Source of the DNA: Massilia atriviolacea
Lineage (GTDB): Bacteria; Pseudomonadota; Gammaproteobacteria; Burkholderiales; Burkholderiaceae_D
Reading direction: 5' to 3'
Assembly: GCF_003953935.1 (NCBI RefSeq)
Contig: NZ_RXLQ01000002.1
Span: forward strand, 62,001 to 126,000
Length of the DNA stretch: 64,000 bases
Shown: one piece after another, positions 3,821-42,443 of the stretch
Position numbering within the stretch: position 1 is the stretch's first letter
Layout: each line of letters starts with the position of its first letter
The notes under the pieces: generated by a model
Seen by the model: only the letters and a program-made list of their open reading frames with translations
Told to the model about the DNA's origin: nothing
The model's database searches: none
Position numbers and translations under genes: made by a program

Positions 3821-4747
3821 ATGTTTTCGTCCGAGCGCCTCAAGGGGATCGACGTGTTTGTCAGCGTCGTCGAGCGCGGCAGTTTCGCCTCGGCGGCCCT
3901 CCGCCTCAACCTGAGCAGCTCTGCTGTCAGCAAAAGCATTGCGCGGCTGGAAAGCCGGCTGGGCACGCGCCTGTTCACCCGCACCACGCGGCGCCTGGCC
4001 CTGACCGACGCCGGCACTGTCTTTTACCAGACCTGCCTGCGCGTCCTGGCCGACCTGGAAGAGGCCGAAACCCTGATCGGCGCCGAGCTTGCGCAACCGA
4101 CCGGCCGCGTGCGCATCGACCTGCCGGCCTCGTACGGACGGCTGCACGCCTTGCCGCTTCTCCTGCAATCGCTGGCCGGACACGACTTGCTGCTGCCGCA
4201 TATTTCCTTTTCCGACCATTTCATCGACCTGGTCGAGGAACGGGTCGACATCGTGGTGCGCATCGGTGGTCCGAACGTATGGCCGGCGGCCCTGGGCCGG
4301 CGCTATCTGGGATCGGAGCGCCTGGTGTTCTGCGCCGCGCCAGCCTATCTGGCGCGCAAGGGCGTACCGCTGACCGACGCCGAGCTCGACCAGCACGATC
4401 GGGTGGTCTACGGCCGCGCGGACGGGCTGGTCAATTCCTGGCTGTTCGCGGTCAGCGAGCAGGGCGCGATGGAACAGCGCTTCATGCAAGGGCGCATTGC
4501 CGTGGGCGATGGGGAAGGGCAGACCGCCGCCGTCCTGGCCGGCCTGGGCATCGCCCAGCTGCCCACCTGGCTGGTCAGGCAGCATATCGAACGCGGCTTG
4601 CTGGTCGAGGTCTTGCCGCAGCTGGCGACCGACGGCTTGCCGATGAACGTGGTGTGGCGCAAGGCGCGCCAGCATCTTCCCAAAGTAAAACTGTTACTCG
4701 ATGTATTGGGCAGCGCGCTGACGCCTGCCGGCGCGGTGTTGGCGTAG
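3821..4747 (+). CDS. LysR-type transcriptional regulator
   Basis: This 308-residue protein starts at MFSSERLKGIDVF. The N-terminal winged helix-turn-helix (residues 6-65) contains SFASAALRLNLSSSAVSKSI and the linker GTRLFTRTTRRL, the LysR hallmark. The rest is the periplasmic-binding-protein-like effector domain, of the CrgA/DsdC-like subgroup that senses small ligands. The gene is divergent from the MFS transporter, and the inverted repeat between them is the likely operator. The upstream reading frame is open, but this ATG is the one that gives a standard LysR N-terminus. Confidence 0.93.
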   Translation: MFSSERLKGIDVFVSVVERGSFASAALRLNLSSSAVSKSIARLESRLGTRLFTRTTRRLALTDAGTVFYQTCLRVLADLEEAETLIGAELAQPTGRVRIDLPASYGRLHALPLLLQSLAGHDLLLPHISFSDHFIDLVEERVDIVVRIGGPNVWPAALGRRYLGSERLVFCAAPAYLARKGVPLTDAELDQHDRVVYGRADGLVNSWLFAVSEQGAMEQRFMQGRIAVGDGEGQTAAVLAGLGIAQLPTWLVRQHIERGLLVEVLPQLATDGLPMNVVWRKARQHLPKVKLLLDVLGSALTPAGAVLA

Positions 4748-4862
4748 CGCCGCTGTTGATGGCCGTCACTGAAAACAGCCGTTGCGCTGGCACTTCTGTT
4801 GTCATTCCATTACTGTGACTGCGGCAACTAATTCGCCGTCCCCCTCACTCCGGAGAATCAGC

Positions 4863-5150
4863 ATGGAAACAAACGATATGGCCTTAACGATGTTCCTCAT
4901 GTCCATGTTCGGGATGTACATGATGTACCTGAAGCAGGATGAACAGAACCGCAAGCTCACCCGCCTGGAAAACATGCTCAGCACGGTACCGGGCGCCGGC
5001 GATGGCTACAAGGACATCCATCCCCGCGTCAGGGCCAAAATCCATGCCGGGGAAATCAGCGGCGCCATCATCCTGCACCGCACCATCGAAGCCATTTCCT
5101 TTGCGGAAGCCGATGCGGCGATCCGAAGCTATATGGCGCGCCAGGATTGA
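4863..5150 (+). CDS. Small membrane-anchored protein of unknown function
   Basis: This 95-residue protein starts at METNDMALT, with a GGAGA ribosome site 6 bases upstream. Residues 6-23 form one Met-rich hydrophobic segment (MALTMFLMSMFGMYMMYLK), probably a membrane anchor. It is followed by a charged stretch (KQDEQNRKLTRLENML) and a small C-terminal domain with HPRVRAKIHAGEISGAIIL and ISFAEADAAIRSYM, a pattern similar to ribosomal-protein-L7/L12-C-like fragments. I do not recognise the family with certainty. The 3' end overlaps the convergent c-di-GMP gene by 22 bases. Confidence 0.7.
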   Translation: METNDMALTMFLMSMFGMYMMYLKQDEQNRKLTRLENMLSTVPGAGDGYKDIHPRVRAKIHAGEISGAIILHRTIEAISFAEADAAIRSYMARQD

Positions 5151-8100
5151 TCCGGACGCGCCTCATCCGCACCGAGCAGGGCGGCAAACTCCTCCGCCGC
5201 CACCGGCCGGCTGAAGAAATAGCCCTGCACCTCATCGCAACCCGCGCCATCGAGATAATCGAGCTGTTCGCGGGTTTCGACCCCTTCCGCCACCACCGTG
5301 ATACCAAGGCCATGCGCCAGCGCAATCGTGGCCTTGGCAATCGCCGCGCTTTTCGCATCGTCGGTAATATTGCGCACGAAACTCTGGTCGATTTTTAACT
5401 TATCCAGCGCAAACCGGCTCAGGTAGCTGAGCGAGGAATAGCCGGTGCCGAAGTCGTCCAGCGCCACCGCCACGCCCATCCCGCGCAGCTCGGCGATCTG
5501 GGCCATTGCCAGTTCCGCTTCCTGCATCAGCACGCTCTCGGTCAGTTCGATGGCCAGGTAGCGCGCCTGCATCCCGCTTGCCCGCAAGGCACTCTGGACG
5601 ATGGACGGCAGGGTGCCGGCCGTGATCTGGTGCGCCGAGACATTCACCGCCACCGGCAGCGCGCGCAGCCCCGCGTCCTGCCACGCCTTGTTCTGCGCGC
5701 AGGCGGTGCGGATCACCCATTCGCCGATCTCGACGATCAAGCCCGAATCTTCCGCCAGCGGAATGAATTCGGCCGGCGATACCATGCCCAGCTCGGCGCT
5801 GTGCCAGCGGATCAGCGCTTCCGCGCCGCACACCCGCTTGTCGGCCAGCCGCAGCTGGGGCTGGTAGAACAGCGAAAATTCGGACCGGCCGAGCGCGCTG
5901 CGCAAACGGTGCTCGAGCGCCATCCAGTGCAGTGCGCGCGTGTTCATTTCAGCCGTGAAATAGCGGAAACTGTTGCGGCCGCTGTTCTTGACGTGCGACA
6001 GCGCCGTGTCCGCGTTCCGGATCAGGTCGCCCGGGTTGACCCCATCGAGCGGATACAGCGCAATCCCCACGCTGGCCGTGACCACCACCTCGTGCCCCAG
6101 CAACTGGCAGGGCGCGGCCACGGCGTCGAGCATTTGCTGGGCGGCGGCATTAATGTCGTCGTTGTCGTCCACGTGCGACAGCACCATGACGAACTCGTCG
6201 CTGCCGATGCGGGCCAGGGTGTCGCCCGGATGCAGGCGTGCCAGCAGGCGCTGGGCCATTTCGCGCAGCAACAGGTCGCCGGCATCATGGCCGATGCTGT
6301 CGTTGACGCGCTGTAAGCGGTCGATATTGAGCAGCAGCACGGCGATCGCGCGCTGGCCCTGGTGCGCCGCCTCGATCGCCTGTTCCATGCGGTCGTTCAG
6401 CAGCGAGCGGTTCGGCAGGCGCGTCAGCGGATCGTGGTTGACCATGAATTGCAGCTGCTCGTTGGCTTCCGTGATATCGCTCAGGTCGGTGAACACGCCC
6501 ACGTAACCGGCCGTGCCGTGCTCCGCGCTGGACACCGCGCTGATTGTCAGCCACTCGGGAAAGACGTCGCCATTCTTGCGCCGGTTCCAGATTTCCCCGC
6601 GCCAATGACCATCGCGGGCCACCGTTTCCCAGAGTTGCCGATAGAAATCCATATCGTGCAGGTTCGAGCGCAGCATGCGGATATTGCGTCCCAGCACATC
6701 CACCTCGCTGTACTGGGTGATGCGTTCGAACGCCGCGTTCACCGCCACGATATTGCTGGCCGCGTCGGTAACGACGATGCCGTCGCGCGTGCAGGCGAAC
6801 ACGCGCGCGGCCAGTTCCAGTTTGTCGTCGGCCTGGCGGCGCTCTGTGACATCCTGCAAGGTGCCCATCAGGGCGGTGACGTTGCCGGCCGCATCGTGCA
6901 CCCCCGTGCTGCGCGAATGAAAGTAGCGCAAGGGTCCGAGCGCGGGATTGCTGCGCAGCTCGCCCGACCAGTTCATGCCATGCTGCACCGCCGATGCCAC
7001 CAGGTGGCGGTCGTCCGGATGGATTTTTTGCAGGAAGACATCGAGCGCGGGCGGTTGTTCCGCCAGCGGCAGTCCCAGCAGCCGGTACATCTGCTGCGAC
7101 CACTGCCCGCTGCGGCTCACCAGGTCCAGGCGCCAGCTGCCGATCAGCGCCAGTTGCTGGGCCGCCCGCAGCGCCTCGTCGCTGTTGAGCAGCGCCTGGT
7201 TCAGGCCATATCGCTTGTGCAACTCGCGCATCGCCCAGGTGCTCATGCCCGCGAGCACCACCAGGAAAGCCAGCGACACGCCGATGTAGGCGCCGGCCAT
7301 GCCGTACCAGTCGGCCAGCAGTTCGTCTTCGCCCAGGCCGACCACCACCACCAGCGGGCGTCCGCTGATGCGCTGGTAAAAATACAGGCGGCGGATCCGG
7401 TCGATGCTGCTGTCGGCGATGTAGCTGCCGGCCTCGGCAGTCGCGCCGCCCTCGTGGAAATTCGGGAAGAAGGTCAGGCGCTTGCCTTCGGCCGTGGTGG
7501 CGGCCGGCATGCGCAGCATGAGCACGCCGTCGGTGCGCACCAGGGCCACCACCCCATCCTTGCCGACCTTGACCGAATCGTAGAAGCGGCGCAGGTATTT
7601 CGGTTCCAGGGCGGCCACGATCACCCCGCCAAAACTGCCGTCGGGACGGGTGATGCGGCGGCTGAAACTGATGAACGGCACGCCCAGCTTGCTGATGATC
7701 GGGCCCTCGATGTGCATGCCGTAGGTGGGCTGGTCGCTGTGGATGCGGAAATACGCGCGGTCCGACAGGTTGTAGCTACCTGGCAATTTCTGACTGTCGT
7801 GAATCATATTGCCGTCGGCATCGAGCAGCCAGATGGCGCGGATGAAGGGCAGGTTGGTGATGCTACTGTCGAGCAATTCCTCAACCAGGCGCTTGCGCTC
7901 CGCCGGCCCGTGCGGCGCCATCTGCACCGCCTTGATGGTCGTCTGCATGGCCAGGTCGACCGCGAAGATGCTGTCGACCGCCTGTTCCTCCAGTACCTTG
8001 ACAAGGATGCGCGCGCTGTTGCTTTTTTGTGTGATGACGTTGTCGCGTGCATGGACCAGCTCGAACACGAGATTGGCGACGATGCCGACGAAGATCAGCC

Positions 8101-8176
8101 CGGCAAAACCGAGCACCAGCAGGGTGACCCCGCGCTCGCCGCGACTGGCGGTACGAAGGGCAAGAAAGGGGTTCAT
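5129..8176 (-). CDS. Membrane sensor c-di-GMP protein: dCACHE-PAS-PAS-GGDEF-EAL
   Basis: The protein has 1015 residues. TM1 (17-39) and TM2 (about 291-313) flank a periplasmic Cache sensor (DRAYFRIHSD, ISFSRRITRPDGSFGGVI). Two PAS domains follow (about 335-450 and 455-570), then GGDEF (580-745) and EAL (755-1005). The cyclase signature is GSDEF (658-662), and the product-binding RxxD site five residues upstream is missing. The EAL domain keeps the catalytic set: EALIRW, VAVNVSA, ELTES, DDFGTGYSS, LKIDQSF and VVAEGVET. The simplest reading is a ligand-sensing c-di-GMP phosphodiesterase with a weak or regulatory GGDEF. It is a single gene, divergent from the rhodanese gene. Confidence 0.92.
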   Translation of the reverse strand: MNPFLALRTASRGERGVTLLVLGFAGLIFVGIVANLVFELVHARDNVITQKSNSARILVKVLEEQAVDSIFAVDLAMQTTIKAVQMAPHGPAERKRLVEELLDSSITNLPFIRAIWLLDADGNMIHDSQKLPGSYNLSDRAYFRIHSDQPTYGMHIEGPIISKLGVPFISFSRRITRPDGSFGGVIVAALEPKYLRRFYDSVKVGKDGVVALVRTDGVLMLRMPAATTAEGKRLTFFPNFHEGGATAEAGSYIADSSIDRIRRLYFYQRISGRPLVVVVGLGEDELLADWYGMAGAYIGVSLAFLVVLAGMSTWAMRELHKRYGLNQALLNSDEALRAAQQLALIGSWRLDLVSRSGQWSQQMYRLLGLPLAEQPPALDVFLQKIHPDDRHLVASAVQHGMNWSGELRSNPALGPLRYFHSRSTGVHDAAGNVTALMGTLQDVTERRQADDKLELAARVFACTRDGIVVTDAASNIVAVNAAFERITQYSEVDVLGRNIRMLRSNLHDMDFYRQLWETVARDGHWRGEIWNRRKNGDVFPEWLTISAVSSAEHGTAGYVGVFTDLSDITEANEQLQFMVNHDPLTRLPNRSLLNDRMEQAIEAAHQGQRAIAVLLLNIDRLQRVNDSIGHDAGDLLLREMAQRLLARLHPGDTLARIGSDEFVMVLSHVDDNDDINAAAQQMLDAVAAPCQLLGHEVVVTASVGIALYPLDGVNPGDLIRNADTALSHVKNSGRNSFRYFTAEMNTRALHWMALEHRLRSALGRSEFSLFYQPQLRLADKRVCGAEALIRWHSAELGMVSPAEFIPLAEDSGLIVEIGEWVIRTACAQNKAWQDAGLRALPVAVNVSAHQITAGTLPSIVQSALRASGMQARYLAIELTESVLMQEAELAMAQIAELRGMGVAVALDDFGTGYSSLSYLSRFALDKLKIDQSFVRNITDDAKSAAIAKATIALAHGLGITVVAEGVETREQLDYLDGAGCDEVQGYFFSRPVAAEEFAALLGADEARPDQSWRAI

Positions 8177-8380
8177 GGAAGTGCACCTTGATCGATTGTG
8201 CAGGCCTTCACCGCGCCCGCCATGGCATTCTGGACCCTGTTTTCATGTCTGTTATATCAGAACGCGCATGAGTAATAAAGCAGGAATTGTTGTACTCGAT
8301 GAAACTGTTGGCGCATGGTTCCGGCGCATGGCGGACGCGACCATTTAAAATAGCGGGTTTGCGTTTTGAAAAGTCCGCCC

Positions 8381-9355
8381 GTGAATGCCCGATCGCCCCT
8401 TTGCCAGCCGCTGTCCGCCGTCCCTGCCGGGCCGGCCCGCGCGCGCGCGCTGGTCGCGCCGGCCGAGCTGGAGGAGCTGGTGCGCGATCCGGCCGTGCGC
8501 CTGCTGGAGGTGGGCTGCGCGGGCCTGCCCGCCTTCGAACAGGGCCACATCGCCGGCGCCGGCTACCTCGACACGCGCGAACTGGAAGCGCCGCCGCTGT
8601 TCAACAAGGTCGGCGATGCGGCCCTGCTGCGGGTGCTGCTCGCGCACGGCATCCGGCACGACACCACCGTCGTCGTCTACAGCCGCAACCCGCTGGCGGC
8701 CGCGCGCGCGGCGCACCTGATGCTGTATGCCGGCGTGGGCGATGTGCGCATGCTCGATGGCGCCCTGGCGGCATGGAGCGCGGCCGGCCTGGCGCTGGTC
8801 GCGGGCGCGCCCGCCGTGGCGGCGCCGGCGCGCGCGTTCGGCGCGCCGTTCCCCGGCCGGCCCGATTACCTGACCGATATGGCGCAGGCGCGCGCCCTGC
8901 TGGCGCGCTCCGACGCCGCCCTGGTCAGCATCCGCACCTGGAGCGAGTATTCCGGCGCCACCTCGGGCTACAGCTACATCGACGCGCGCGGCGAGATTCC
9001 CGGCGCGCTGTGGGGCCACGCCGGGCACGAGGGCGACGTGAACAGCATGAGCCACTTTCAGCACGCCGACGGACGCATGCTCGATGGCGCCGCGATCGAG
9101 GCGCTGTGGCGCGCCGGCGGCATTCGCCGCAGCGCCCATAACGCCTTTTACTGCGGCACCGGCTGGCGCGCCTCGCTGGCCTTCTTTTATGCCTGGCTGA
9201 TGGGCTGGGAGCGCATCAGCGTGTACGACGGCGGCTGGTACGAATGGAGCGCCGACCCGGCCAACCCGGTCGCCATTAACGCTGCGGAAAAGGCGCCGCC
9301 ACGATGCGGAACGCCAGTTCCATCGGGTCCTGTACCGTCAGCGCGCCGCCCATGA
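8381..9355 (+). CDS. Two-domain sulfurtransferase (rhodanese)
   Basis: The gene encodes two tandem rhodanese domains. The N-terminal domain (HIAGAGYLDTRELE, TTVVVYSRN) lacks a catalytic cysteine. The C-terminal domain has the active-site loop CGTGWRAS, in which Cys carries the persulfide. Proteins of this layout transfer sulfur from thiosulfate or 3-mercaptopyruvate to cyanide or thiols. The start is uncertain: GTG at 8381 is used here, and TTG at 8366 is in frame; neither has a strong ribosome site. The last 80 bases overlap the convergent yceI-like gene; the C-terminal tail encoded there (Pro/Arg-rich) looks like read-through beyond the domain. Confidence 0.88.
   Translation: MNARSPLCQPLSAVPAGPARARALVAPAELEELVRDPAVRLLEVGCAGLPAFEQGHIAGAGYLDTRELEAPPLFNKVGDAALLRVLLAHGIRHDTTVVVYSRNPLAAARAAHLMLYAGVGDVRMLDGALAAWSAAGLALVAGAPAVAAPARAFGAPFPGRPDYLTDMAQARALLARSDAALVSIRTWSEYSGATSGYSYIDARGEIPGALWGHAGHEGDVNSMSHFQHADGRMLDGAAIEALWRAGGIRRSAHNAFYCGTGWRASLAFFYAWLMGWERISVYDGGWYEWSADPANPVAINAAEKAPPRCGTPVPSGPVPSARRP

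Positions 9356-13392: not shown

Positions 13393-13405
<13 letters not shown>
12554..13405 (-). CDS. CheR-type protein-glutamate methyltransferase
   Basis: This is a CheR-family protein of about 283 residues. Its small N-terminal domain matches ELEIDLLLEGVFQRYGFDFR, and the SAM-binding domain follows (KVWLAECAHAEEAWSLAILL, TEIFATVANEELLAEA, VTWAQYNLVTDASFNEFQLILCRR). Several catalytic-loop positions differ from the classic chemotaxis CheR. The start overlaps the end of the poly-HAMP kinase: GTG at 13405 or TTG at 13396, the latter nearly coincident with the kinase TGA, so translation is coupled. CheR proteins paired with hybrid kinases of this type methylate or modulate the kinase; no CheB methylesterase gene is present here. 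The gene ends in a 12-bp repeat. Confidence 0.85.
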
Positions 13406-18560
<5,155 letters not shown>

Positions 18561-18564
<4 letters not shown>

Positions 18565-20462
18565 CGGCTTTGTCCTCGTTTTTTGGGAGTTGAAAGAGCG
18601 GCCTGATTCGGGTTCGGGCTCGTTGTTTGGTGTTGGGTTCCTGCCTGCAGCAGCGCCAGCATGTCGGGCGCGGGCAGGGGAGGGCTGAGTAGTTCGCCCT
18701 GGAATTCGTCGCAGCCGAGCGATTTTAGAACGGCCAGCTGTCCGGCGCTATGCACGCCCTGCGCCAGCACGCGCAGGCCGAGCGCGCGCCCGAGGTGGAC
18801 GATGGCCGCGGCCATGTCGGTACCGCGTTCGACGCCGATGGCGCGCACGAAGGCGCGGTCGATCTTCATGGCGTCCAGCGGCAGGTCGCGCAGCATGGCC
18901 AGGGCCGCGCCGGCGCTGCCGAAATCGTCGACCGTCAGGCGCACGCCGGCCGCTTTCAGCTGGCGCAGCACGGCCGCGCTGTCGCGCGTGTCGAGCAGCA
19001 GGTGTTCGGGAATCTCGAGCTCCAGCCAGCCGGCCCCCAGCTTGCAGCGGCGCAGGTGGGCCAGTACGCGCGCGGCCAGTTCGGGCCGGATCTGCAGCAG
19101 CGCCAGGTCGACCGCCATGACGACCTGCGCCACCGGCGCCGCGCGCGCGGCGCGCCAGGCGGCGGCCTGGGCGCATGCCGCGCCCAGCATCCATTCGCAT
19201 ACCTGTTCGAGCAGCAGGCTGTCGGCCACGTCGGGCAGGAAGCGCGGTGCCGCGATCAGGCCGTGGCGCGGGTGGCGCCAGTACAACAGCGCTTCGACCG
19301 CGCAGATGGCGCCATCGGGCAGGGCGGCGCGCGGCTGGTACAGCAGGTCGAACTGCCCGCCTGCCAGCGCCGCCTGCAGTTCGGTCACCCACTGGGCGCG
19401 CTCGCGTTCGCGCGTGTTGAGCTCTTCGCGAAAGAACTCGATGCTGCCGCGCCGGTGCTGCTTGGCGTGGTACATGGCGGTGTCGGCGTTTTTCATCAGC
19501 TGCGCGGCGCTGCCGCCGTCCTGCGGATACAGGCCGATGCCGATGCTGGTGGAGGTCGCGATGCGCTGGCCGTTGATCTCGAAAGGGCGCGAATGCGCCT
19601 GCTCGATCTTGCGCGCCACCCGCGCCGCGTTGGCGCCGGCCCCGCGCCCTTCCAGCAGCACCACGAATTCGTCGCCGCCCAGGCGCGCCACCACGTCCGA
19701 CACGCGCACCGCCGCCAGCAGGCGCGCGGCGACCTGGCGCAGCAGTTCGTCGCCCACTTCGTGGCCGAGCGAGTCGTTGATCTGCTTGAAGCGGTCCAGG
19801 TCGAGGAACAGCAGCGCGAATTCGCCGCCGTGGCGGTCGGCGCTGGCGACCGCGTGTTCGAGCTGGGCGATCAGCGAGCGCCGGTTGACCAGGTTGGTCA
19901 GCGGATCGCGGATCGAGAGCGCCTGCGCGCGCTGTTCGGCGACCTTGCGTTCGGCCACTTCCTGCTCCAGCGCGCGGTTGATCCGTTCCAGGTCCTGCAC
20001 GCGCTGCACGCGCAGGTCCTGGTTGAGCAGCGACAGTTCGCGCGTCTTGGCCTGCAGTTCCAGGTTCTTGCGGGTCAGGTCGACGAACACCGCCACCTTG
20101 GTTTGCAGGACCTGCGGGATCACCGGTGTAAACAGATAGTCGGCCGCGCCCTTGCTGTACGCTTCCAGCCGGTGCCGTTCGTCGCCGTAATGGGCGGTGA
20201 TGAAGATGATCGGCACCGCGCTCGAACGCGGGTGCGAGTGGATCGCTTCGGCCGTTTCGAAGCCGTCCATGCCGGGCATGTTCGCGTCCAGCAGGATCAC
20301 GGCGAAGTCGTGGTTCAGCACCATGCGCAGCGCTTCATGGCCGGAGCGGGCCTTGAGCAGCGCGTAGTGCTGCGCGCGCGTGGCCTCGGACAGGAGGCTT
20401 TCGAGCGCCATCAGGCTGGCGCCGTCGTCGTTGACAAGTAAGACTTTCGGAATGATCTGCAC
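18561..20462 (-). CDS. Response regulator REC-GGDEF-EAL, probable diguanylate cyclase with degenerate EAL
   Basis: The protein has 633 residues with a GTG start. The receiver (5-125) has [10 protein letters not shown] and [14 protein letters not shown]. The GGDEF domain (about 195-355) has a full [10 protein letters not shown] and an intact product-binding RVSD five residues upstream. The EAL domain (370-620) keeps EALLYW, DDFG and MKIDRAF. It has Asp instead of the metal-binding Asn (MAVDLALLQ) and AQGVHS where active enzymes have AEGVET, so phosphodiesterase activity is doubtful. It is first in the operon with the poly-HAMP kinase (4-base ATGA overlap), whose phosphoryl groups it may receive. 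That would link the kinase to c-di-GMP synthesis. Confidence 0.92.
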
Positions 20463-20914: not shown

Positions 20915-21652
20915 ATGGTGAAAATGGGACAACTGATGACGCTTTTGAAAAGCGACCAGGAGAATGGCTGGAGCTCGGCCCTGTTTTCGCTGGCCCACGA
21001 CCAGGGATTCGACCAGGTGTTATACGGCACGGTGGGCTCGAAGCACGTCAAGCTGGAGACGGCCTTCGTGTACAGCAACTATGCGCCCGCATGGCGCACC
21101 CGCTACGACGCCGACAAGCTGCACTATGTCGACCCGACCGTCTCCCACTGCCTGACCAGCTCGTTGCCGATCGTGTGGGAACCGGATACCTTCCACTCCC
21201 CCGGCCAGCGCGAGCTGTACGAGGAAGCCTGCGGCTACGGCATCCGTTCAGGCATTACGTTTCCGATCCACGGGCCGAGCGGAGAATTCGGCGTGGTCAG
21301 TTTTGCCTCGGACGCCCAGCCCAACAGCGATTTCGACAGCCGGATCAGCCAGCTGATGCCTTCGCTCTCGCTGATCCGCGATTATGCCTTCGAGTCCTCG
21401 CTCAAGTTCGTCGCGCCCAAGGCCGGCGCGGAGCCGCTGCCGCGCCTGACCAAGCGCGAGCTGGAAGTGCTCAACTGGGTCATGGTCGGCAAATCTTCGT
21501 GGGAAATCTCGAAGATCGTCCTCTGCTCCGAGGCCACGGTGAATTTTCACATCGGTAACATCCGGGTGAAGTTCAACGTCAACACTCGGCAGCAGGCGCT
21601 GGTCAAGGCGATCAGCATGGGCATCATCAGCCCGGAAGATCCCCATCGCTGA
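20915..21652 (+). CDS. luxR: LuxR-family quorum-sensing transcriptional activator
   Basis: This 245-residue protein starts at the ATG preceded by AGGGAG at 8-base spacing. The autoinducer-binding domain (about 20-165) contains YAPAWRTRYDADKLHYVDPTV, with the conserved Trp, Tyr and Asp that line the acyl-homoserine-lactone pocket, and GYGIRSGITFPIHGPSGEFG. The C-terminal LuxR helix-turn-helix (about 175-240) reads LTKRELEVLNWVMVGKSSWEIS, then SEATVNFHIGNI. It is expected to bind the lux box at 21971-21990 and activate luxI and possibly the rsaL-like gene. The 3' end overlaps the convergent rsaL-like gene by 26 bases, the same arrangement as lasR/rsaL. Confidence 0.95.
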   Translation: MVKMGQLMTLLKSDQENGWSSALFSLAHDQGFDQVLYGTVGSKHVKLETAFVYSNYAPAWRTRYDADKLHYVDPTVSHCLTSSLPIVWEPDTFHSPGQRELYEEACGYGIRSGITFPIHGPSGEFGVVSFASDAQPNSDFDSRISQLMPSLSLIRDYAFESSLKFVAPKAGAEPLPRLTKRELEVLNWVMVGKSSWEISKIVLCSEATVNFHIGNIRVKFNVNTRQQALVKAISMGIISPEDPHR

Positions 21653-21917
21653 GCTTGCCCTTGACGTACAGCTTGACCAGGATCGCCACCGGCGCCGGAA
21701 TGCCGAGGCCGGTCTCGAAGCGGCTGCCGCTCGACTGGGTGACGCCGAAGCGGCCCCAGAATTTTTCCTGGCTTTCGCGCTTGCTGATCCTGAAGCGTTT
21801 CAGTTCGCTGTGAGGCGTGCTTGCCATCGTGCCGGCAATCGCAGCGCCGCTATCGTGATCGACCTCGGCGCGATGCTCTGCCACGGAAGCCGACTGGTAA
21901 TTGAAATCCTGTGCCAT
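21627..21917 (-). CDS. rsaL: RsaL-like quorum-sensing repressor
   Basis: This is a 96-residue DNA-binding protein starting at MAQDFNYQSAS behind a GAGGAAA ribosome site. The C-terminal 60 residues (RISKRESQEKFWGRFGVTQ, SSGSRFETGLGIPAP, VAILVKLYVKGKLSDGDL) closely resemble Pseudomonas RsaL, as I remember that sequence: RRESQETFWSRFGISQSCGS, then RFENGENIPFPI. RsaL is a tetrahelical HTH repressor that shuts down lasI. The gene lies between luxR and luxI, opposite to both, as in lasR-rsaL-lasI and ppuR-rsaL-ppuI. A site matching the RsaL operator lies in front of luxI. The N-terminal 35 residues are variable. The protein is therefore expected to form the negative arm of the circuit. Confidence 0.85.
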   Translation of the reverse strand: MAQDFNYQSASVAEHRAEVDHDSGAAIAGTMASTPHSELKRFRISKRESQEKFWGRFGVTQSSGSRFETGLGIPAPVAILVKLYVKGKLSDGDLPG

Positions 21918-21970
21918 AACGTTTCCTCGCAAACAAAAACTCAGTATTTCATCCGGCATGCGAAATGGGT

Positions 21971-21990
21971 ACCTAGCAACTCTACTAGTT
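21971..21990. promoter_or_regulatory. lux box between rsaL-like gene and luxI
   Basis: ACCTAGCAACTCTACTAGTT is a 20-base dyad with the invariant CT-N12-AG of lux/las boxes and 5 of 6 matched end bases. Its centre lies about 45 bases upstream of a predicted rsaL start (AATACT at 21948-21943 as -10 element) and about 80 bases upstream of the luxI ATG. One box could therefore serve both divergent promoters. Confidence 0.75.
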
Positions 21991-22018
21991 ATGTTAATGA
22001 CTTTTTTGCATGATTCTT

Positions 22019-22033
22019 CATGCAAGTTGCATA
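22019..22033. promoter_or_regulatory. RsaL-type operator in the luxI promoter
   Basis: CATGCAAGTTGCATA matches the Pseudomonas RsaL site TATGnAAnTTnCATA (recalled from the literature) at every fixed base except the first. It lies 29 bases downstream of the lux box and 28 bases before the luxI ATG, over the expected transcription start. A second dyad, TGCATGA-N4-TCATGCA (22007-22024), overlaps its left part. Confidence 0.7.
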
Positions 22034-22060
22034 ACTTTTACATAAAGCGAGGTACTCAAG

Positions 22061-22648
22061 ATGGCTTTGCATATTCGAATCGCCGCACGGCGCGACTTCA
22101 AATCACGTGACCTGTGGGAGATGCACAAACTGCGTGCCAAGGTTTTCAAAGACCGGCTGGGCTGGGAGGTGCCGATCATGAGCGGCATGGAAATCGACGG
22201 CTACGATGCCCTGGAACCGCTCTACATGATGATCCGCGAGCCGGGCGGCGGCGCCCTGCGCGGTTGCTGGCGCATCCTGCCGACCGAAGGCCCCTACATG
22301 CTCAAGGATTCCTTCGCCCAGCTCCTGCACGGCCAGGACGCCCCCCAGAACGACCGCATCTGGGAACTGTCGCGCTTCGCCATCGAAACCGACGGCAATC
22401 CGCGCTTCGGTTTTTCGGAGATTACCATGGAATCGATCGGCGAGATCATCAGCTACGGCCATCACGCCGGGCTGGACCAGTACGTGACGGTCACCACGGT
22501 CGCCATCGAACGCCTGCTGCGCCGCGCCGGGGTGTTGACCAGGCGCTTCGGCGACCCGGTCCAGATCGGCGTGGAGCGCGCGGTGGCCCTGTACGTGGAC
22601 ATCGCCGGCACCTACGAGGCCATGTTCGAGTCGCGCCTGGCGTCCTGA
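22061..22648 (+). CDS. luxI: Acyl-homoserine-lactone synthase (LuxI/LasI family)
   Basis: This 195-residue protein contains the invariant residues of the family: Arg and Phe of LRAKVFKDRLGW, Trp of that motif, Glu-x-Asp of EIDGYDALEPLYM, Arg of GCWRILPTEGPYML, and Glu-x-x-Arg of WELSRFAIE. It makes an N-acyl-homoserine lactone from S-adenosylmethionine and acyl-ACP; the chain length cannot be told from sequence, though the gene order favours the LasI/PpuI group. A GAGG ribosome site precedes the ATG. The promoter carries a lux box and an RsaL-type operator, so expression should be autoinduced and then capped. The gene is convergent with the helical protein gene, 9 bases apart. Confidence 0.95.
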   Translation: MALHIRIAARRDFKSRDLWEMHKLRAKVFKDRLGWEVPIMSGMEIDGYDALEPLYMMIREPGGGALRGCWRILPTEGPYMLKDSFAQLLHGQDAPQNDRIWELSRFAIETDGNPRFGFSEITMESIGEIISYGHHAGLDQYVTVTTVAIERLLRRAGVLTRRFGDPVQIGVERAVALYVDIAGTYEAMFESRLAS

Positions 22649-41426: not shown

Positions 41427-42443
41427 TTACTTGGCCTGGTAGATCTTGTCGAATTCGCCGCCGTCGTCGAAGTGGGTTTTCTGCGCCTTTTTCCAGCCGC
41501 CGAAGACGTCGTCGACCGTGAACAGCGAGATCGGTTTGTAATTGGCGGCGAACTTCTTGGCTACCGCTTCCGAGCGCGGCCGCAGGTAATGCCTGGCGCC
41601 GATGGTCTGGCCCGCTTCCGAGTAGAGGAAGTTCAGGTAGGCGGTGGCCTGCTTGCGCAAGCCGCGCTTGTCGACCACCTTGTCCACCACCGCCACCGGC
41701 GACTCGGCCAGGATCGAGACCGGCGGATAGACGACCTCGAAGTTGTCGCCGAATTCGGTGCGCACCATCTGCACTTCGCTCTCGAAGGTCACCAGGGCGT
41801 CGCCGATGTCGCGCTGGGTGAAGGTGGTGGTGGCGGCGCGGCCGCCGCCGTCGAGCACCGGCACGTTCTTGAAGATGCGCGTGACCAGCTCGCGCGCCTG
41901 GGCCTCGGTGCCGCCCTTCTTGATCGTGGCGCCCCAGGCGGCCAGGTAGGTGTAGCGGCCGTTGCCCGCCGTTTTCGGGTTCGGAATGACCACTTTCACG
42001 CCCGGCTTGCCCAGGTCATCCCAGTTCTTGATCTGTTTAGGGTTGCCTTTACGCACCAAAAAAATCATCGTCGAATAATATGGCGCCGCATTATGGGGAA
42101 ATTTCTTGGCCCAGTCGGCCGCCACCACGCCGCGGTCGGCCAGCATGTCGATATCGTTGGCCTGGTTCATGGTCACCACCGACGCTTCGAGCCCGTCCGC
42201 GACGGAGCGCGCCTGCTTGCTGGAACCGCCGTGCGACATGTTGACGCTGACCGTTTCGCCGGTCGTCTTCTTGTATTCGGCAATGAAAGCCGGGTTGATT
42301 TCCTTGTACAGCTCGCGGGCCACGTCGTAGGACACGTTGAGCAACTGGGCGTCGGCGGCGCTGGCGCCGAGCGGCAGGATGGCCAGGCCGGCGGCCAGCG
42401 ACAGGATCGCGCGGCGGGTACGCAAATTGCATGTTGTTTTCAT
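41427..42443 (-). CDS. sbp: Periplasmic sulfate/thiosulfate-binding protein
   Basis: This 338-residue protein has a signal peptide (about 1-29, cleavage after GASA) and the Sbp/CysP signature: LLNVSYDVARELYKEINPAF, MSHGGSSKQARSVADGLEA, VVIPNPKTAGNGRYTYLAAW and GDALVTFESEVQM. It captures sulfate for the CysTWA ABC importer, whose genes are not adjacent. The closest match by eye is Sbp. A rho-independent terminator follows the stop, so it is transcribed alone. Confidence 0.92.
   Translation of the reverse strand: MKTTCNLRTRRAILSLAAGLAILPLGASAADAQLLNVSYDVARELYKEINPAFIAEYKKTTGETVSVNMSHGGSSKQARSVADGLEASVVTMNQANDIDMLADRGVVAADWAKKFPHNAAPYYSTMIFLVRKGNPKQIKNWDDLGKPGVKVVIPNPKTAGNGRYTYLAAWGATIKKGGTEAQARELVTRIFKNVPVLDGGGRAATTTFTQRDIGDALVTFESEVQMVRTEFGDNFEVVYPPVSILAESPVAVVDKVVDKRGLRKQATAYLNFLYSEAGQTIGARHYLRPRSEAVAKKFAANYKPISLFTVDDVFGGWKKAQKTHFDDGGEFDKIYQAK

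Follow-up and report, generated by a model that had tools for sequence, protein, structure and literature searches.

A luxR gene, an rsaL-like gene and a luxI gene lie side by side in the window, by which we mean the whole stretch of DNA analysed (64,000 nucleotides). They raise the question of whether the locus encodes a quorum-sensing circuit with its own brake, and what RsaL is kept for. The initial annotation had described luxR on the plus strand, an rsaL-like gene on the minus strand overlapping it tail to tail, and a divergent luxI, and coordinates and profile matches bear out this layout:

20915..21652, plus strand: luxR, ATG at 20915, stop at 21652, 245 aa, LasR-like AHL receptor/activator
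21627..21917, minus strand: rsaL, ATG at 21917, stop at 21627, 96 aa, RsaL-type repressor
22061..22648, plus strand: luxI, ATG at 22061, stop at 22648, 195 aa, LasI-like AHL synthase
21627..21652, no strand: tail-to-tail overlap of the luxR and rsaL frames, 26 bp with the stops counted in

The order and orientation of luxR, rsaL and luxI are those of the L1 topology (R> <L I>), and rsaL and luxI are separated by 143 bp of intergenic DNA. A profile search found PF22495 in 16/17 genomes of the host genus, and phmmer found the order luxR-rsaL-luxI in 15 of the 16 genus rsaL loci, one of the 15 (L018) having broken frames; with both counts this high, the arrangement is not due to chance. The same order was present in 29 of 46 named loci, a set that overlaps the 16 genus loci, with L057 and L092 among the 29 carrying broken luxI frames. 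The initial annotation had raised Oxalobacteraceae as a possible host family and proposed looking for the same arrangement in Massilia and Duganella; the nearest named relatives are indeed Massilia of that family. Rfam and tRNA scans of the 64-kb window gave no matches.

The identity of the rsaL product was examined by profile, structure database and predicted fold. It matched PF22495 ("RsaL-like HTH") with an E-value of 8.3e-22 and 76.7 bits (cut-off 27), and an NCBIfam search returned no RsaL match. The sole PDB sequence match up to E 10 was 5j2y (E 1.1e-14, phmmer), which is P. aeruginosa RsaL by its record title, and the core is 50% identical to that protein. The AF2 model, whose mean pLDDT was 71 and whose N-terminus was of low confidence, was a four-helix (tetrahelical) HTH with helices at 35-45, 50-55, 61-68 and 75-85, and Foldseek placed 5j2y at ranks 1 and 2 (E 2.2e-4 and 2.9e-4). 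The motif RESQE-FW-RFG-TQS-GSRFE, on which the earlier assignment had been based, is found in the product. The assignment thus passed the profile test proposed with it: the profile hit, the matching PDB sequence and the modelled fold all mark the product as a genuine RsaL.

The LuxR protein matched PF03472 (E 6.7e-35) and PF00196 (E 8.7e-19), far over the curated cut-offs, and its best PDB match was LasR (6mvn, E 3e-58), with 40% identity across 239 columns. At the LasR-numbered positions Y56, W60, R61, Y64, D73, T75, W88 and S129, which we take to be AHL-pocket residues, it is identical to LasR in 8/8; among the positions checked it departs from LasR at 40, 47, 70, 93, 101, 110, 125 and 127. 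The LuxI protein matched PF00765 (E 6.7e-35, likewise well over its curated cut-off) and LasI (1ro5, E 8.4e-56) and is 49% identical to P. aeruginosa LasI. The LasI-numbered residues R23, F27, W33, D44, D47, R70, E101, S103 and R104, presumably candidate catalytic residues of a LasI-type synthase, were invariant in 31/31 aligned LuxI proteins, a count made without L057 and L092. Judged by these matches, the three proteins are of the LasR, RsaL and LasI kinds.

Since rsaL and luxI are transcribed divergently and an operator-type sequence lies between them, the intergenic region was read for candidate promoter elements:

21971..21990, no strand: lux box ACCTAGCAACTCTACTAGTT of the CT-N12-AG type, the same kind of box as in relatives and P. 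aeruginosa
21943..21948, minus strand: candidate rsaL -10 element AATACT, 22 bp from the lux box, located by eye
22007..22013, plus strand: candidate luxI -10 element TGCATGA, 16 nt past the lux box, located by eye
22019..22033, no strand: predicted RsaL operator CATGCAAGTTGCATA, with 1 mismatch to the published TATGnAAnTTnCATA

The lux box pattern, which was derived from the window, had no further match in the 64 kb at up to 3 mismatches, and 0 were expected. AGTATT was present on the rsaL side in 29/29 luxI-bearing and 17/17 luxI-less named loci, and TGCATRA at offset 16 from the lux box in 28/29 luxI-bearing ones. The operator pattern, with up to 2 mismatches, gave 2 matches in the whole window against 0.15 expected. 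The predicted operator has 7/8 half-site bases, a score that shuffles of its 60-nt stretch reach in 7% of trials, so what supports it is the fuller consensus together with conservation. An operator-type site with at least 7/8 half-site bases was found at offset 26-33 past the lux box in 29/29 named luxI-bearing relatives, which are not independent of one another, and the sites themselves fall at offsets 27-31; in the control, 60 of 9200 random 60-nt stretches from the same loci had at least 7/8.

From these results we consider it highly probable that the locus encodes an AHL quorum-sensing circuit of the las ("L1") type that is native to Massilia and carries its own RsaL brake. LuxI would make the AHL, and AHL-bound LuxR would bind the lux box and activate both divergent promoters, those of luxI and rsaL. 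RsaL dimers would then occupy 22019-22033, which covers the expected start site immediately past the luxI -10-like element, and would silence luxI; this incoherent feed-forward loop would cap the signal level. For P. aeruginosa, the consulted sections of PMC10746200 and PMC11139201 describe LasR as the activator of rsaL and lasI, and RsaL as the repressor of lasI.

The conserved YATGC-N5-GCATA-type repeat might instead fold into a hairpin in the leader of luxI, or be the site of another regulator, since it forms an inverted repeat close to where the transcript is expected to begin. We regard this as quite unlikely, because the repeat resembles TATGnAAnTTnCATA, the footprinted P. aeruginosa RsaL consensus (PMC11139201, in the part consulted), and because a leader hairpin is not expected at the loci where the palindrome lies upstream and overlaps the -10-like element, namely P. 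aeruginosa, L042 and seven other family loci. The brake might also act through antisense interference on luxR, from convergent transcription over the luxR/rsaL overlap, rather than through binding of RsaL to DNA at luxI. In 44/46 named relatives the overlap measures exactly 26 bp, and PMC3386692, in the text available, raises such a role for overlaps generally; yet conserved protein ends could by themselves fix the overlap, it is 11 bp in P. aeruginosa, and the locus has an RsaL-type DNA-binding protein together with a conserved candidate operator. This explanation therefore seems to us very unlikely.

Under the preferred reading, a brake that works by RsaL binding at luxI, the position of the operator differs from that known in P. 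aeruginosa. The predicted operator is at offset 28 past the lux box in the window versus 7 in P. aeruginosa, and appears to be displaced downstream by about 21 bp (two helical turns) in 29/29 named luxI-bearing relatives. In the P. aeruginosa arrangement the operator overlaps the luxI -10; the window site is downstream of the -10-like element. Overlap of operator and -10 is a trait of the P. aeruginosa arrangement and not of the RsaL protein family. The upstream operator (offset 7) was seen in P. aeruginosa and L042, and by sequence reading, from a listing without L095-L099, in L139, L143, L144, L145, L147, L150 and L152. As the palindrome is upstream in some loci and the spacing from lux box to TGCATRA is fixed at 16 nt in 28/29, the palindrome would be the moving part. 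Another family of the order supplied a single L1 comparator, L099 (genome G710); its overlap measures 17 bp, and its operator-like site, at offset 8, is weak (6/8). An operator moved while the spacing from lux box to -10 is unchanged would offer a clear-cut way to test the mechanism by which RsaL blocks transcription.

On the rsaL side of the P. aeruginosa lux box, the half-site test found no site (best 4/8). A second RsaL site has been footprinted there (PMC11139201, in the part consulted), so the test can miss real sites. The idea that RsaL does not repress itself here was dropped: the rsaL side of the window scores 4/8, but so does the footprinted side in P. aeruginosa.

In 17/46 named relatives luxI was absent and luxR, rsaL and the lux box were kept. 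All but one of these loci (L091) form a 16-row clade with tree support of 100/100, in a tree that leaves out L092 and L054 of 54 rows, and the best tree suggests that luxI was lost in several related lineages, four times in all. A different account would be that these relatives reflect gaps, misassembly or a recent decay that also affects luxR and rsaL. Four of the loci (L080, L082, L084 and L089) come from metagenome bins, and luxI is broken in M. cavernae (L057) and Massilia sp. H-1 (L092). We find this account hardly credible in view of the clade support, of the lack of LuxI-family (PF00765) matches in 16/17 luxI-less genomes searched, of a prolyl-oligopeptidase homologue that adjoins on the opposite strand in 16 of the 17 luxI-less named loci (exception L091; family assignment checked on the window gene), and of the low dN/dS in the clade, with medians of 0.136 for luxR and 0.103 for rsaL. 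These are pairwise Nei-Gojobori medians with the filter 0.1 < pS < 0.6 over pairs that are not independent; for the luxI-bearing set, in which the broken-frame L092 was kept, and the luxI-less set, from which L091 was left out, the pairs used were respectively 291/406 and 117/120 for luxR and 327/406 and 117/120 for rsaL. Both genes in the 16-row clade look to be under purifying selection. Replacement of luxI by another lux-box-driven gene was also considered for the main clade and rejected, the neighbour being the opposite-strand prolyl-oligopeptidase homologue.

The luxI-less loci differ from the others in further ways. In the 16-row clade, the receptor pocket position corresponding to LasR 75 is not Thr in 14/16, and position 40 has changed from Val to Ser in 16/16. 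No operator-type site was found on the luxI side of the lux box in the clade (best 4-5/8 in 16/16), and a weak operator-like repeat was present on the rsaL side. This comparison suggests that luxR-rsaL without luxI may be a listening module with a repressor as its output. RsaL may even be changing jobs in Massilia: the operator would have slid by two helical turns from the -10 to the luxI start, after which luxI was lost, the pocket changed and the rsaL-side repeat was gained, leaving a stand-alone, perhaps self-limited sensor of foreign AHLs with the repressor as output. We put this forward tentatively, as a possibility somewhat short of probable. The rsaL-side score of 6/8 is reached by 329/9200 random 45-nt stretches and, at other places, by 3/29 luxI-bearing loci, which makes the stand-alone sensor slightly less likely. 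RsaL has been described as what caps AHL production. A receptor and RsaL kept together with no AHL synthase found in the genome would show that RsaL is worth keeping with no signal of its own to cap, and the luxI-less lineages are a natural experiment separating the homeostat role of RsaL from its role as a global regulator.

That second role provides one more explanation, in which RsaL acts chiefly as a global regulator of distal targets and matters little for luxI, the arrangement having simply been inherited. In P. aeruginosa RsaL does regulate globally according to the sections of PMC10746200 consulted, rsaL is seemingly under purifying selection where luxI is gone, and more palindromes of the operator type occur elsewhere in the genome. 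Of five TATGC-N5-GCATA sites taken from the first 50 YATGCNNNNNGCATR matches, four fall outside coding-like frames of 100 aa or more, and the fifth (L130) is inside an open frame with an uncertain start. Against this explanation stand the operator-type site kept at the luxI promoter in every named luxI-bearing relative and the lack of such a site on that side of the lux box throughout the luxI-less clade, and we judge it unlikely. A genome-wide RsaL regulon drawn from the bare pattern YATGCNNNNNGCATR (56 sites vs 8 for the reversed-pattern control) was not retained. A plasmid search returned three records, the P. aeruginosa lasR-rsaL-lasI genes and HTH genes in Thauera and Azospira; the latter two had no annotated quorum-sensing genes within the stretch fetched.

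The capped circuit proposed here resembles P. aeruginosa lasR/rsaL/lasI in gene order, orientations, convergent luxR-rsaL overlap, shared rsaL-luxI promoter region and protein families, and also in the 16-nt spacing from lux box to TGCATAA read from the lasI sequence. It is unlike that system in operator offset (28, against 7) and overlap length (26 bp, against 11). It had been suggested that the locus, if from Oxalobacteraceae, would be a complete activator-plus-repressor homeostat outside Pseudomonas; such a circuit would not be new, since braR/rsaL/braI of plant-beneficial Burkholderia, with L1 topology and strict negative regulation by RsaL, was already published (PMC3742214, in the text available). 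That system has the same topology in a betaproteobacterium of another group, and a 2012 survey covered RLI topologies in beta- and gamma-proteobacteria. What is new is comparative, namely the shifted predicted operator and the absence of luxI from relatives that keep luxR-rsaL. Massilia would gain a quorum-sensing circuit, with rsaL in 16/17 genus genomes, and we found no RsaL-capped circuit described for this genus in the literature searched.

P. fuscovaginae carries an RsaL circuit and an RsaM circuit in one genome (PMC3658600 and PMC10710839, in the sections consulted), and here too RsaL-linked and RsaM-linked AHL circuits are both present in one genome, with the difference that the second circuit here contains two rsaM-type genes in tandem with luxI and luxR on the other strand. 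The layout of this second circuit fits "type 5" of PMC10710839, as given in the text available. Concerning LuxR solos, the accessible parts of PMC10134790 and PMC4357305 mention rsaL only as a label for a circuit or as the gene that separates luxR from luxI. The receptors of the luxI-less relatives are like LuxR solos in having no linked synthase, but unlike them these relatives keep an adjacent rsaL and a lux box.

A luxR gene, an rsaL-like gene overlapping it tail-to-tail and a luxI gene divergent from the latter had been placed in the window by the initial annotation. The coordinates were confirmed, and all three products matched their own Pfam families far above the cut-off. The genes and the sites between rsaL and luxI are as follows.

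20915-21652, forward strand: luxR; nearest PDB sequence LasR (E 3e-58)
21917-21627, reverse strand: rsaL; sole PDB sequence match up to E 10 is 5j2y (1.1e-14)
21971-21990: lux box, one in the rsaL-luxI region
luxI side, starting 16 nt past the lux box: TGCATGA element
22019-22033, starting 28 nt past the lux box: predicted RsaL operator, palindrome CATGCAAGTTGCATA
22061-22648, forward strand: luxI; nearest PDB sequence LasI (E 8.4e-56)

The ColabFold model of RsaL (mean pLDDT 71) showed four helices, its N-terminus being of low confidence, and the best two Foldseek matches of this model were both chains of 5j2y, P. aeruginosa RsaL. Together with the profile and PDB sequence matches, the predicted fold places the product in the RsaL family. 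The conserved residues checked in LuxI were kept in 31/31 aligned sequences. LuxR retained Y56, W60, R61, Y64, D73, T75, W88 and S129 (LasR numbering) and differed from LasR at eight checked positions (40, 47, 70, 93, 101, 110, 125, 127), so its signal need not be 3-oxo-C12-HSL.

The window genome comprises 7.36 Mb in 80 contigs. PF22495 matched in 16 of the 17 host-genus genomes, in 102 of 392 sampled family genomes (92 over cut-off) and, phylum-wide, in 22 of a sample of 398 genomes (10 over cut-off). A pattern search with the window RsaL alone gave 46 loci with organism names, most titled Massilia, which are close relatives and no census; the nearest were Massilia aquatica, mucilaginosa, rubra and frigida (89-92% RsaL identity), which points to a Massilia host. 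Because these genus, family and named sets share members, their counts are not additive. Layout in the genus loci, the named loci and 30 family loci was scored by phmmer with the window proteins as queries. The order luxR> <rsaL luxI> was found in 15 of 16 genus loci, the remaining one being without luxI, and all three genes were present in 29 of 46 named loci, luxI being missing in 17. Two of the 29 had a broken luxI. In Massilia cavernae (L057) the match covered residues 1-96 only, and a PF00765 search of the genome gave no match; in Massilia sp. H-1 (L092) luxI lay in split frames, possibly from sequencing errors (genome copy G013 is rated 48% complete). The luxR/rsaL overlap was 26 bp in the window and in 44 of 46 named loci, compared with 11 bp in P. 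aeruginosa (L121).

The 30 family loci, taken from 30 of the 102 genomes with a match, comprised 23 with all three genes, 3 with luxR and rsaL without luxI, and 4 with rsaL and neither. These lone copies (L026, L031, L035, L039) were all in genomes of genus g18, three of which had a second PF22495 match (G295, G070, G092) and one a single match (G110). Another 19 loci came from 18 family genomes that belong to other genera (one to g18): luxR with divergent luxI was found in 10, luxI in the same direction as rsaL in 4, luxR without luxI in L141 and L151, and neither in L135, while L149 and L153 were fragments at contig ends. In L136, L137, L146 and L148 (genomes G119, G213, G055, G052), luxI is followed by rsaL in the same direction and luxR is convergent to them; upstream of luxI, two repeats resembling lux boxes lie 34 bp apart.

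The rsaL-luxI intergenic region of the window is 143 bp with a single lux box. The predicted operator CATGCAAGTTGCATA departs at one position from the RsaL consensus TATGnAAnTTnCATA given in PMC11139201. Two matches with at most two mismatches were found in the whole window, where 0.15 were expected; the other is TACGCAAATTGCATG at 42419-42433, with two mismatches. Among the 29 named luxI-bearing relatives, TGCATRA started 16 nt past the lux box (offset 16) in 28 (exception L088). All 29 had a TATG-N7-CATA-type site at offset 27-31 that matched 7/8 half-site bases or more (8/8 in 14). When the 60 nt were searched without restriction, an equally good site was found elsewhere in two (L063, L086). 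Random 60-nt stretches from the same loci reached 7/8 in 60/9200 cases. Shuffles of the window's 60 nt did so in 7% of trials, so a lone locus would not prove an operator; the case rests mostly on conservation among loci that share ancestry. Five more TATGC-N5-GCATA palindromes in the window genome (L130-L134), four outside coding-like frames, are possible RsaL targets.

Read from the sequence, the P. aeruginosa lasI promoter has TGCATAA at offset 16, equal to the window spacing, but its operator starts at offset 7 and shares the TGCATAA element, whereas that predicted in the window starts at 28. The P. aeruginosa operator is described as overlapping the -10 (PMC11139201). An operator-type site at offset 7 was also found in L042 and, by reading sequences, in L139, L143, L144, L145, L147, L150 and L152; L099, from another family, had a weak site (6/8) at offset 8. 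The downstream position was read in three loci of genus g4 (L138, L140, L142), without TGCATRA. Two alternative operator positions, separated by about 21 bp, are thus seen. We read the downstream place as derived because P. aeruginosa and the more distant rows have the upstream one, and not from a reconstruction.

In P. aeruginosa, LasR-AHL activates lasI and rsaL, both of which are in turn repressed by RsaL (PMC10746200). The lux box, the two -10-like elements and the predicted luxI-side operator suggest, by analogy, that this wiring applies to luxI here: LuxR-AHL would activate luxI and rsaL through the single lux box, which the divergent -10-like elements flank, and RsaL would bind the luxI-side predicted operator and repress luxI. 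It is from the observed genes, families and conserved sites that we infer activation, binding, repression and signal type. The rsaL-side half-site score was 4/8 in both the window and P. aeruginosa; self-repression of rsaL cannot be judged from this score, since P. aeruginosa has a second, different-looking site footprinted on that side (PMC11139201).

A second AHL circuit was found on contig C31 of the window genome (L128).

6530-7255, reverse strand: luxR
7604-8194, forward strand: luxI
8265-8654 and 8751-9197, forward strand: two RsaM-type genes (PF16245)

A zinc-type dehydrogenase gene (4721-6112), read as crotonyl-CoA-reductase-like, adjoins this circuit, and a third LuxR is encoded on contig C1. 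RsaM-family matches were found in 4 of 17 genus genomes, compared with 16 of 17 for PF22495. RsaL and RsaM are known together in the P. fuscovaginae genome, and the window genome likewise carries both RsaL- and RsaM-linked circuits. RsaM-domain matches on G005 contig C202 and G016 contig C2 lie within open frames of 388-389 aa, perhaps an RsaM-LuxR fusion; such a fusion is reported for two Massilia species (PMC10710839). Within the window, a large hybrid histidine kinase is encoded at 13393-18564 (reverse strand). It has a GAF domain, three receiver domains and a tandem array of many nearly identical HAMP repeats, and its gene adjoins a REC-GGDEF-EAL gene (18561-20462).

In the 17 named luxI-less loci and in L017 and L019-L021, luxI was absent with at least 1.4 kb examined on the luxI side. 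The CTA-N10-TAG lux box persisted in all of them, and the rsaL-side AGTATT in all except L017. A PF00765 search of 17 whole luxI-less genomes (14 of the named 17, plus L019-L021) gave no match in 16 and a weak one (4.5e-7) in G802 (L066). The LuxR tree, built from 52 rows, requires four changes to explain luxI absence (bootstrap 4-4) and joins 16 luxI-less rows in one clade (support 100/100). Its starred branches by themselves force just one change, so that four independent losses are likely without being proved. A prolyl-oligopeptidase homologue lies nearby in 16/17 luxI-less and 23/29 luxI-bearing loci. This common neighbour and the luxI-bearing outgroups argue for loss rather than late gain of luxI. 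L141 (G060, genus g4), outside the tree, has luxR, rsaL and a lux box with no luxI found, and is perhaps a further loss.

In the 16-row clade luxR and rsaL had median pairwise dN/dS values of 0.136 and 0.103, lower than the 0.263 and 0.324 obtained for luxI-bearing loci. W60, R61, Y64, D73 and W88 were invariant in both groups. LasR position 40 was Val in 29/29 luxI-bearing rows and Ser in 16/16 of the clade; position 75 was Thr in 29/29 versus 2/16. Within the clade, Y56 was replaced by Phe in 3/16 and S129 by Thr in 2/16. All 16 had a weak operator-like repeat (6/8, N7 spacing) on the rsaL side, 5 nt from the lux box; it is only suggestive, because 6/8 was reached on that side in 3/29 luxI-bearing loci, at other distances, and in 329/9200 random 45-nt stretches. 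In this clade, LuxR may respond to AHLs of outside origin, with a repressor as the gene it turns on.

Among the matches listed in the open-licence literature, including Massilia AHL/luxI titles, we found no description of an RsaL circuit in Massilia; the review PMC10710839 deals with Massilia for RsaM, and with Pseudomonas for RsaL. The luxI-less luxR-rsaL pairs are likewise a part for which no description was found among those matches. The luxR> <rsaL luxI> topology with RsaL has been described in Pseudomonas and in plant-beneficial Burkholderia (PMC3742214, PMC3386692). The window circuit belongs to this known kind, and the position of its predicted operator is new.
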